From the NCBI GenBank assembly GCA_960531495.1, contig OY482847.1, positions 26,107,598 through 26,171,597 of the forward strand: a stretch of DNA of 64,000 bases, read 5' to 3'. The notes beneath the pieces were generated by a model. That model was not told the origin of the DNA. It saw only the letters and a program-made list of their open reading frames with translations, and ran no database searches. The translations under genes and the position numbers were made by a program. This document shows positions 12,191-63,426 of the stretch, piece after piece. The stretch comes from Zeus faber. Taxonomy: Eukaryota > Chordata > Actinopteri > Zeiformes > Zeidae. Within the stretch, counting starts at the first letter, position 1, and every line of letters starts with the position of its first letter.

Positions 12191-12327
12191 TTCTGCACGT
12201 GCTTCTAGCCTGGCATTGCCAGGCCGATTCGCTATTGGGTATTAGTCTGGAATCTCTCAGTTCAGTTTTGATTTCCAAGGGGCGTTACCAATGGGCACAG
12301 ACTTGTATCGCATGGACGCAATAGTAT

Positions 12328-12775
12328 AGACTTACAACCAATCAGAGCATTGGATAGACCTACAACCAATCAGAGCATTGGATAGACCTACAACCAATCA
12401 GAGCACTGGATAGACCTACAACCAATCAGAGCACTGGATAGACCTACAACCAATCAGAGCACTGGATAGACCGACAACCAATCAGAGCATTGGATAGACC
12501 TACAACCAATCAGAGCACTGGATAGACCGACAACCAATCAGAGCATTGGATAGACCTACAACCAATCAGAGCATTGGATAGACCTACAACCAATCAGAGC
12601 ATTGGATGGACCTAAAACCAATCAGAGCCTTGGATAGACCTACAACCAATCAGAGCCTTGGTTAGACCTACACCAATCAGAGCCTTGGTTAGACCTACAC
12701 CAATCAGAGCATTGGATAGACCTACAACCAATCAGAGCCTTGGATAGACCTACAACCAATCAGAGCCACGAAACG
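12328..12775. repeat. 16-unit CCAAT-box minisatellite
   Basis: Sixteen tandem units of 27-28 bp each contain accaatcagagc, a good match to the NF-Y (CCAAT-box) consensus. Units ending gcattgg also carry CCAAT on the opposite strand; units ending gcactgg have lost it. Most units differ from their neighbours by one or two bases, which points to recent amplification. It lies inside the TIR element and interrupts the RecQ-like frame. Confidence 0.95.
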
Positions 12776-12955
12776 TGTGACGTAGCGCTGAGCGAGCGAG
12801 TTGGTAATTAAACTTTTACCAAATCCTGTCGGACGTACGACAAACACGTCTTTCATATCAACAAAAAGCTTTTTAGAGGAAAATATACCGTCCAGTTTGT
12901 TTAATACTGTCGCGATATCGGTTTCAACGGACCGTTCCACAACAGCGGCAGCCAT
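12776..12955 (-). pseudogene. RecQ-like helicase N-terminal fragment (transposon cargo)
   Basis: An ATG at 12,955 opens a frame starting MAAAVVERSV. Residues 36-50 read DVFVVRPTGFGKSLI, which is helicase motif I (Walker A, PTGxGKS) of the RecQ-like DExH helicases. Only about 55 residues look conserved before the frame runs into the CCAAT minisatellite, so DExH motif II and everything later are absent. It cannot make an active helicase. The surrounding TIR and target duplication indicate that it was carried here by a transposon. Whether it came from a host gene or from a helicase-bearing element is unknown. Confidence 0.6.
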
Positions 12956-13160
12956 CTTGGTAAGGTGCATCAACATCTGCAGCGTCATCGTATCAAACCC
13001 ACCCCATATTAGATAAACGGCTGTGATTGGCCCGACCCTGGCAAGGTCGGGTGGAAATCTGTTTGAACGGGAGGGTGGCCAGATGTACTCTGCAGAGCAA
13101 ATGAAACATGAGCTGCAGATTAGTCCCCAGAGCATGATGGTTCCCAGGCTAACATGCTTC

Positions 13161-16100: not shown

Positions 16101-16682
16101 CACATTTGGCTGGAACTGGGCAAGCGTCTACCTTCTACCCTGGGCAAGCGTCTACCTTCTACCCTGAAAGACCCTGCAGTAGAATAAATACATAGACCTA
16201 GATTGAAAGAAAGAATGTTGAGCAGATGCTTAGTGCTTGAAAATAAATTTCTCTTGTATGAACTGCGTAATCCCTGCACAGCTGGACTAAAACTGTAGTA
16301 ATGCTTGAAATAGGACAGGCCCAACTCGTGGACCGACATAGGGACAGCTGTGGCCAAGCTGCGTTGCATAACAAATATGACAAGCCAACTGCACAGCAGC
16401 TCACACCAGGATGAAAATCTCAGTTTAACACAGTAGCCGTAGCCCTCCCATATAAGCAATCTGCACCAATGAATAATGAGCACCAGTATGCTTTGTAACA
16501 CCATGCACATGTATTTGTAATGAGTATTGACATTCAGCTTAGAGACCTTCTTATGGAGACAAACTGGTTAAAACAATGTAAATATGAGCGTTTGTCGAAG
16601 CTTTATCAGAACATTTTCACGTTACAAAAATGTAACGCAATGCTGTTATATACATAATGTTATGTCATCATTCTAAGCTTAC
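13161..16682. other. myo9a intron 2 adjacent to the first coding exon
   Basis: No conserved exon is visible. A 23-24 bp direct repeat, gggcaagcgtctaccttc and following bases, occurs twice at about 16,118-16,165. Reading frames such as 15,095-15,565 (minus) are unsupported. Confidence 0.55.
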
Positions 16683-17579
16683 CTCCAATACCGGCCCTGC
16701 CCCCAGAATGATCTGCTCCACCCCACTGGCAAATCCTTTCTGGCTGAGAGCGGTCAGGTGATGAATCAGGAAGTTTGTACTCTGTGTTTTTCCAGAGCCA
16801 CTCTCTCCTGATATAACAATGCACTGGTTCCTTTGTCTCTGCAACATGGCATGGTATGCCACATCCGCCACTGCGTAGATGTGCGGCTCCAGCTTCCCCA
16901 AAGCGTGGTTATCGTACATCTTGACATACTTGGGATTGTAGATAGGCAGGAATTTAAAGGGATTGATGCAGATGAGGATTGTGCCAACGTAGGTGTAGAT
17001 CCTCTCCTGGCGGAACCGTGAGCGCAGGTTGTCCAGCAGCGAGCGCTCGTTGAGCTCCGGCAGGCGGCACAGGTCAGCGTGGTCCCCTTGTGGTTCGGGC
17101 TGGGGCAGCAGGCCGCGTTCCACCATGCACCTGCGTTCCTCCGTGACTTGCAGCCACATCTGGAGGCTGCCACCATAGTGAATGGAACCGTCGAGGTTCT
17201 TCTGCCGCAGCAGGAAGCGGTAGTCCTCCCCGCCAGACAAGGAGCGCTGCTCCAGCGCCACACGGGGCCACAGCATCATCCGCTGCACAGGGCAGTCACT
17301 GGGGTTGAGGATCCATTCCTCCCCACCAAACTCCTTCACCTCAGCCAGAACGTAGCACTTAGTGCGATCCAGTCTGAGGCGATCGATGACACGCTCGATG
17401 GCCTCTGCGGCCGTGGTGGTCTTGCGGGCGCTGACCGGGCAGTAGATGGTGCCCTCGGCCAGGGCTCCTGGGTAGATGCGAACAGTGAACTCTGAGTTCT
17501 CAAAGCGCCGCCGCCGCCCAAAGGAGCCCACGCCACCAATGCCGCCACTGCCTCCGACCCCGCCATCATGAGCGTTCAT
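16683..17579 (-). CDS. myo9a: Unconventional myosin IXA, first coding exon (partial gene)
   Basis: Myo9a is a single-headed actin motor with a RhoGAP domain in its tail that inactivates Rho at cell junctions and protrusions. This exon encodes residues 1-299. The start MNAHDGG aligns with mammalian MNINDGG (recalled), which favours the ATG at 17,579 over in-frame codons upstream. A Gly-rich stretch (residues 6-21) precedes a Ras-association-like domain at about residues 26-128 ([19 protein letters not shown], then [16 protein letters not shown]). The motor begins near residue 160. The ATP-binding P-loop GESGSGKT is residues 258-265, followed by [10 protein letters not shown], where the exon ends at donor GGAG/GTAAGC. 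The rest of the motor, IQ motifs, C1 and RhoGAP domains are beyond the left edge. Teleosts may have two paralogues (myo9aa, myo9ab); I cannot say which this is. Confidence 0.97.
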
Positions 17580-17665
17580 GGCGGAGAAGGCGTTCCCATT
17601 AGTAGAACACGCCACTGGCACGTCCTTCTCTGGGCTGGAGGGGCCACAGCATCAAGACATCACTG
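17580..17665 (-). other. myo9a: myo9a 5'UTR part of exon 2, with NAGNAG acceptor
   Basis: On the minus strand the tract cacttttCAGCAGtgatg precedes the start codon by about 85 bp. Either CAG can serve as the acceptor (exon start at 17,665 or 17,662), a tandem NAGNAG site. Because this lies in the 5'UTR, the choice would not change the protein. Confidence 0.7.
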
Positions 17666-38455: not shown

Positions 38456-39016
38456 TGCTCGTTCACGCACGTTAGTTTTTCCACCTTTTTTTTTTTTTTT
38501 TTAATACGAAACCATTTTTTTTTTTTTATCGTATCCTTCGATCGTCGCCGTGGTGTTCGTTCCGTCGTCACAGCTTATGTACGGGTTTTATTTTATTCCT
38601 ATGTATGAGAATTGGAACGATTTGGTTCGTTGTGTATTGCCGGTGTGTTCATTTCTTTGGTTAATTTTTAAGTGGATGTCCCATTTTTCCGTATTTCCTT
38701 TCTTATTAATGTGTTATCGCTGCTATTTTTATCGCCTATTGTTTTGCTGTGTTCTGCTGTAAGACCCCACTCAAATGATCCGTCTATCGCTTGTCTGTCT
38801 GTAATCTTATCTTTCTATCAACCTATCCAGCCGCTGTTTGTAAATGAGTTTATCTTTCCATCTATCGTATCTCGCCGCCTCTTATCTCTCGTTTACCCGG
38901 ATGAAGAAAGATAATGTTCTATTCATAATAGAGTGTTGTCTTAAACAATGCTTATTTATCACATCGGTTTCTTGATAAACCTCCCGTAGGTTGAGCCTGT
39001 CAGTCCGTCTTGGAGA

Positions 39017-39631
39017 ATGGACCCCGTGGTGCTGAGCTTCCAGGACAGCCTCCTGCGGCGCTCCGACGTGGCCCTGCTGGAGGGACCCCACTGGCTCAAC
39101 GACCAGGTCATCGGCTTCGCCTTCGAGTACTTCGCCGCCGAGCGCTTCAAAGGCCTGGGCCAGACCATCGCCTTCATCAGCCCGGAGGTCACCCAGTTCA
39201 TCAAGTGCGCTTCCTGCCGAGAGGAGTTGGCCCTTTTCCTCGAACCGCTGTGTCTGGCCTCCCGCCGCCTGGTCTTCCTGGCCGTCAACGACAACTCGCA
39301 CCAGGCGGCCGGGGGCTCGCACTGGAGCCTCCTGGTCTATCGCTGCGACCCCGCCCGCTTCGCCCACTATGACTCTCAGAAGGGCGGGAACTCGCTTCAC
39401 GCCAGGCGCATCGCCAGCAAGCTGGAGCCCTTCCTGGGCGCCGGCGGGAAGGTGCACTTCGCGGAGGAGCCCTCTCCGTTGCAGCAGAACAGCTACGACT
39501 GCGGCATGTACGTCATCTGCAACGCCGAGGCCTTGTGCGACAAAGCCGGCGTGGAAACCATCACCCCGACCCACATCACCCAGAAGAGATCCGAGTGGCG
39601 CAGGCTGATCCAGAGACTTGCAAAAGATTAA
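39017..39631 (+). CDS. senp8: Sentrin-specific protease 8 / NEDD8 protease (DEN1)
   Basis: A complete intronless frame of 204 residues (mammalian SENP8 is 212, recalled). This C48 (Ulp1/SENP) cysteine protease trims the NEDD8 precursor and removes NEDD8 from non-cullin targets in cytosol and nucleus. The papain-like triad is visible: His102 in GGSHWSLL, Asp119 in AHYDSQKGG, and Cys162 in NSYDCGMYVI, with the oxyanion Gln at 156-157. The N-terminal LRRSDVALLEGPHWLND is the family's exosite region. The ATG has A at -3 and G at +4, a strong context. Codon third positions are very GC-rich, unlike the AT-rich flanks. There is no signal peptide or membrane segment. The longer antisense frame at 38,882-39,880 is a shadow of this gene. 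Confidence 0.98.
   Translation: MDPVVLSFQDSLLRRSDVALLEGPHWLNDQVIGFAFEYFAAERFKGLGQTIAFISPEVTQFIKCASCREELALFLEPLCLASRRLVFLAVNDNSHQAAGGSHWSLLVYRCDPARFAHYDSQKGGNSLHARRIASKLEPFLGAGGKVHFAEEPSPLQQNSYDCGMYVICNAEALCDKAGVETITPTHITQKRSEWRRLIQRLAKD

Positions 39632-46400: not shown

Positions 46401-63426
<17,026 letters not shown>

Follow-up and report, generated by a model that had tools for sequence, protein, structure and literature searches.

A window of 64,000 nucleotides from Zeus faber (the whole stretch of DNA analysed here) contains a TIR transposon in which a 28-bp unit carrying a CCAAT box is repeated in tandem. On the account that we consider rather probable, a DNA transposon that generated 9-bp target-site duplications (TSDs) and encoded a RecQ helicase gave rise to this MITE-like element, within which a one-unit segment has been expanded and contracted by repeat instability. 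Judged on its sequence, it is most likely a MITE whose CCAAT minisatellite is unstable and probably binds NF-Y.

The element occupies positions 12206-13151 and is bounded by TAGCCTGG (12206) and CCAGGCTA (13151). Its flanks, ACGTGCTTC on the left (12197-12205) and ACATGCTTC on the right (13152-13160), match at eight of nine positions, and therefore the span 12197-13160 put forward in the original prediction runs exactly from TSD to TSD. An exact duplication shifted by 3 bp (TGCTTCTAG) is suggested by the window alone; it was rejected because other copies fix the ends at the two words given above. The left end (12206-12325, plus strand) comprises the TIR TAGCCTGGCATTGCCAGGCC (family form TAGCCTGGCATCGCCAGACCAAT) and the 120-bp left unique region; the right region (12767-13151, plus strand, 385 bp) ends in the TIR ...GGTTCCCAGGCTA, whose family form, reading inward, is TAGCCTGGGAACCAGACCAATC. 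An Rfam search returned no matches.

Between the two lies the array (12326-12766, plus strand), with the unit ATAGACCTACAACCAATCAGAGCATTGG. TRF delimits it at the same positions with a period of 28, 15.8 copies and 95% matches, and a motif scan finds 16 exact CCAATCAGAGC cores on the plus strand (12338-12766) at spacings of 27-28 bp, two of which are 27 bp; the predicted amplification of a 28-bp CCAAT unit is thereby borne out. Allowing up to one mismatch, CCAATCAGAGC occurs 20 times in the window, compared to 0.98 times expected by chance. In seven units a second, opposite-strand CCAAT (ATTGG) lies 11 bp from the first box. The last core and, after it, GTGACGTAGC, a word that we take to be CRE-like, together span 12756-12786 (plus strand); the right-region consensus shows the two in this order as well. 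Scans of viral_contigs and genome_contigs for the pattern gave no matches.

A minus-strand ORF at 16671-17651 contains RA and Myosin_head domains, a layout that we take to be that of a class IX myosin; we infer both the name of the host gene, myo9a, and the number of the intron in which the element lies. Elsewhere in the window, an ORF at 38990-39628 (plus strand) encodes a Ulp1-type protease domain (PF02902, 6.9e-7) and is probably senp8, presumably a neighbour of myo9a in vertebrates, and positions 48578-48858 hold a degenerate minisatellite of TATTC type, in which periods of 5, 24, 45 and 70 are nested.

Common ends and target duplication in a dispersed family

The genome searched was the window's own (803 Mb, 153 contigs). 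The element search yielded 974 first-look candidates; scoring 40 of them gave at least 85 matches. There were 356 first-look array candidates, and TAGCCTGGGAACCAGACCAATC, the word for the right TIR, matched 277 times at up to two mismatches, compared to none for its reversed control. Dispersed copies that share both ends and array do exist, and the proposal of a TIR element stands, the ends TAGCCTGG and CCAGGCTA being common to them. Thirty loci were fetched with the window element; two (L007 and L030) were second fetches of L024 and L011 and were dropped, leaving 28 distinct copies, of which all except L028 match the right region. The consensus TIRs are TAGCCTGGCATCGCCAGACCAATTC on the left (from the consensus) and TAGCCTGGGAACCAGACCAATCTGC on the right (read from the listing). 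Both contain a short palindrome just before ACCAAT (CTGGC-ATC-GCCAG left, CTGG-GAA-CCAG right), perhaps a transposase site. As to arrays extending past the TIRs, a matter raised by the original prediction, one 1.5-kb flank of the window copy holds no core-like match (up to two mismatches) and the other holds one; in other copies the confinement of the array is partly by construction, because their ends were sought outside it.

Per-base agreement between the flanks of the 11 copies with both ends is 0.73 at 9 bp, against 0.24-0.36 at every other length from 4 to 12 and 0.24-0.28 in a cross-copy control. Seven of the 11 have a TSD matching at seven or more of nine positions, compared to none of 110 mismatched (cross-copy) pairs, which confirms the 9-bp duplication that had been proposed; a convincing TSD is absent from four. 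L028 and L029 were left out of this count, their end calls being judged false (3/9 and 2/9 by eye); with them it becomes 7/13. TSDs of the same quality are present in five of ten further both-ended loci and in three of ten loci picked by TIR, two sets in which ends were partly chosen for flank match or several ends were tried. The right-hand duplication of L006, GGTTCGAAC, resembles what we take to be a tRNA T-loop (B box), and this copy may sit in tRNA-like sequence.

The helicase fragment and the variable array

A minus-strand ORF (12955-12806) reads MAAAVVERSVETDIATVLNKLDG...DVFVVRPTGFGKSLI and runs from its ATG to a Walker A motif (MAAAVVERS...PTGFGKSLI), the truncated start of a RecQ-like helicase gene. 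That identification, made in the original prediction, holds on the strength of relatives. The window fragment alone scores below the cut-off in Pfam (best AAA-ATPase_like, 0.012; DEAD, 0.095) and without significance in NCBIfam (best 0.055); against solved structures it meets designer PPR proteins through many weak repeats, with no single stretch passing. The consensus fragment is likewise below the Pfam cut-off (best ResIII, 0.0083; DEAD, 0.039) and gave nothing informative against solved structures. A protein search of the genome with the window fragment returned 118 matches, and the less decayed relatives read close to IFSLKEEQTTALKAFVDKKDVFAVLPTGFGKSLIYQLAPLV. Two shorter relatives match Pfam DEAD at 1.8e-5 and 4.6e-4, slightly below the curated cut-off, while a longer decayed one, L053 (on C2), continues through SPLVALMEQQ and matches the RecQ profile TIGR00614 at E=2.7e-11 (42.9 bits; the whole-protein cut-off is 219.8) and PDB chains of human-type RECQ5 at 4.5e-7. 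L086 retains remnants of what are presumably later RecQ motifs, and the long frames L071 and L072 (on C5 and C22) have helicase starts about 53-54% identical.

The helicase start sits 196 bp inside the right end, which it adjoins in both one-unit and array copies; a helicase match is present in eight of ten loci picked by the exact right TIR, and L053 and L073, longer decayed copies with the helicase start, retain that TIR. The fragment had been described as an unusual cargo. Capture, the first reading of it, was rejected on this position, and the fragment makes most sense as the beginning of a gene that belonged to the progenitor itself. Its place by the right end and the RecQ match of a longer relative thus argue that the element is a MITE-like derivative of a RecQ-encoding transposon. 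In L073, L085 and L086, which have helicase remnants, no credible left TIR was found at up to four to five errors and no transposase was seen in frames read by eye; the progenitor's transposase and left half were not found among the family copies read.

Two minus-strand motifs accompany the helicase ATG: CCAAGATGGC (12951-12960), which surrounds it and is presumably YY1-like, and a lone CCAATCACAGC (13020-13030), 75 bp upstream on the side facing away from the array, which would be a promoter-like CCAAT box. The original prediction also offered the element as a possible promoter for an autonomous relative; the box belonging to the helicase start is this one, outside the array. The CCAAT box (-75), a GC box (-50), the YY1-like motif (-3) and the CRE-like word are exact in 25, 16, 33 and 20 of 41 copies, compared to 25, 10, 12 and 9 for control words of other lengths. 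In L009, L011, L027 and L029 the helicase start codon lies within a second tandem duplication, about 60 bp in length (right region about 146-208).

The array is a variable state that occurs in a minority of copies and is scattered over the family tree. Although copies picked by their match to the window element (28 in all) carry 7.6-50 units, the 34 distinct loci among the best helicase-protein matches (at most 20 taken per search, five second fetches left out) have zero or one unit in 20 cases, two to four in six and at least five in eight, and ten loci picked by the exact right TIR have 1, 1, 6, 2, 1, 2, 0, 1, 4 and 0. The dispersed copies sharing array and ends that the original prediction looked for are present, but with zero or one unit in 20 of 34 loci the array is not a hallmark of the family. 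Six copies that have these ends and the helicase start but no more than one unit measure 473-590 bp; four have a TSD matching at seven or more positions, four keep CCAAT and one keeps the whole 11-bp core. Fully read copies of the family have between 0 and 50 units, and the range may extend to about 60: the longest uninterrupted run fully read has 50 units (L021), and on C13 (L012) a run of 45 reaches the locus edge, with matches that continue perhaps to about 60. A reading of the C13 array as about 84 units long was withdrawn, there being a gap in the matches (L012 consists of the run of 45 and 18 after the gap).

On a tree of 41 copies the size classes are interleaved. The class with at least ten units requires 12 changes, compared to a shuffled mean of 13.6, and 107 of 500 shuffles are as low as 12; at least three changes are forced by well supported branches, while 25 of 38 inner branches are open and the bootstrap is not settled. 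Because arrays are in the minority and unclustered on the tree, array copies seeded no successful lineage that could be seen; they are no more numerous for having arrays. Over 537 units, differences per unit average 3.14 within a copy and 4.05 between copies. The window copy (12740-13122) and L032, which lie 690 kb apart, share a tract, 98% identical, that starts in the last unit and stops at about 13122, and their termini are different on both sides; the tract likely reflects gene conversion or recombination between copies. A recent expansion from one to 16 units, considered on the basis of this pair, was rejected since the 98% block is limited and both termini are divergent.

Tandem-repeat instability is the probable origin of the array, and a history can be proposed. 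The progenitor would have been a DNA transposon making 9-bp TSDs and encoding a RecQ-like helicase that began 196 bp inside the right end; internal deletion would have turned it into a non-autonomous MITE-like form. The short form (473-590 bp, six copies), with its single CCAAT unit, would be ancestral, and in a minority of copies the 28-bp segment would have been repeatedly expanded and contracted via slippage or unequal exchange.

Putative NF-Y sites and rival explanations

The NF-Y consensus is RRCCAATSRS. Fourteen of the 16 cores fit it, the two misfits being the boxes directly after 27-bp spacings; the rest of the window holds seven such sites. Binding of NF-Y to the array units is plausible on this showing. 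In the available text of one study, NF-Y contacts span -7 to +17 and 24 bp is the least spacing of adjacent trimers (PMC4982600); 28 bp exceeds this minimum, and therefore 16 same-strand boxes at 27-28 bp could be filled together. The opposite-strand boxes 11 bp away, which in seven units overlap the first NF-Y footprint, could not be filled as well. On balance we expect the units to be NF-Y sites that can be occupied side by side. The same text gives 31 bp as the CCAAT spacing that promoters favour and, for LTR12, 24 and 41 bp (PMC4982600); the spacing of 28 bp here matches none of the three.

Among the 28 circular 10-bp windows of the unit, positions 11-20 are the best conserved over 28 arrays (mismatch 0.050, compared to up to 0.101 elsewhere). 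Copies in which the core is better conserved than the remainder of the unit number 19 of 28 (Wilcoxon p=0.0008), or 21 of 28 when the two polymorphic positions 24-25 are omitted (p=0.008). We regard this as modest evidence for NF-Y; mutation bias could produce it.

The coincidence of the best conserved window with the NF-Y consensus tells against a neutral minisatellite, in which the array is simply replication slippage in a dead MITE, its CCAAT content incidental and unbound. This alternative accords with the finding of zero to two units in 23 of the 34 loci drawn from the best helicase-protein matches and in eight of the ten TIR-picked loci, with the scatter of array sizes over the tree, and with units that are only somewhat more alike within copies than between them; we think it unlikely, yet a serious contender. 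Alternatively, the units could be extra subterminal transposase sites, a role ascribed to the tandem repeats of Galileo TIRs in the accessible part of PMC4079207. Such a role has that precedent and the presence in both consensus TIRs of CCAGACCAAT, which has ACCAAT in common with the unit; the array is, however, one-sided, stands 120 bp from the left end and is borne by less than a majority of copies, and we judge the idea improbable. That the copy in the myo9a intron is a host enhancer regulating myo9a seems scarcely credible: an exon encoding RA and myosin head domains lies next to it, and it offers 16 NF-Y-like sites, but it is one of many dispersed copies and its sequence reveals nothing specific to the myo9a insertion. 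An action of the array on myo9a is without support.

That NF-Y keeps array copies of this MITE nucleosome-poor we rate as somewhat short of an even chance. That a nucleosome-poor state helped array copies to transpose, or was kept by selection, is doubtful. In the most far-reaching version, itself rather unlikely, a fish DNA-transposon family would have made an expandable NF-Y array (from one to at least 50 sites) out of a promoter-type CCAAT box; the array, scattered over the genome, would be a tunable chromatin-opening module that raises transposase access or else serves as a regulatory island or a sink for NF-Y, and behaviour like that of LTR12 would have arisen independently in a cut-and-paste transposon. 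The family is in any case a natural dose series, in which related insertions with the same ends carry from none to dozens of NF-Y-type sites in one genome. It is suited to asking how chromatin opening depends on the number of CCAAT boxes and on their spacing, and could also show whether such arrays benefit transposons or help mobile DNA to spread.

Relation to known systems

As a short TIR element without transposase, with many copies and TSDs, the element agrees with the description of a MITE. Helitrons are not known to have TIRs or TSDs, and this element has both. The TSD of hAT elements is 8 bp; flank agreement at 8 bp is 0.32, compared to 0.25 in the control. By way of the L053 fragment (TIGR00614) the progenitor gene matches the RecQ helicase profile, and in this it would resemble KolobokH and Kolobok-1_CCri, DNA transposons that encode a RecQ helicase; the former is said to occur only in fungi and the latter comes from a red alga (both from the partial text of PMC9587614). 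Their TSD is the 4-bp TTAA (PMC9587614), unlike the 9 bp here, and agreement at 4 bp is 0.32 (control 0.25) as opposed to 0.73 at 9 bp. A TSD of 8-10 bp is a criterion for Mutator/MULE elements (PMC4079207, in the portion available), and the 9-bp TSD fits Mutator-like elements, a likeness that is suggestive only.

TIR elements with internal tandem repeats are known from Drosophila, namely Tetris / DAIBAM and Galileo, and Tetris copies have TSDs of 8-10 bp and no conserved ORFs, as here; the repeats of Tetris and Galileo are about 220 bp long and lie inside the TIRs, and the available part of the paper mentions no CCAAT array or RecQ remnant (PMC4079207). CMITEs are tandem arrays of MITEs themselves (PMC2872659). 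The titles and abstract openings surveyed, a coverage that excludes subscription journals and Repbase, describe no NF-Y array in a DNA transposon.

The closest working analogue is provided by the NF-Y repeats of LTR12 (ERV9), whose U3 contains a unit of about 41 nt that bears NF-Y sites and is repeated 5-17 times (PMC11853044); LTR12 regions bound by NF-YB have CCAAT distances of 24 and 41 bp (PMC4982600). In both systems, as far as the accessible texts go, CCAAT boxes are repeated in tandem within a mobile element, those of LTR12 being bound by NF-Y (PMC11853044, PMC4982600, PMC10968565). LTR12 is an LTR retroelement with a unit of about 41 bp and a demonstrated enhancer, whereas the present element is a DNA transposon with a 28-bp unit in 0 to at least 50 copies, known from sequence alone; where active, its array would act like the NF-Y arrays of LTR12.
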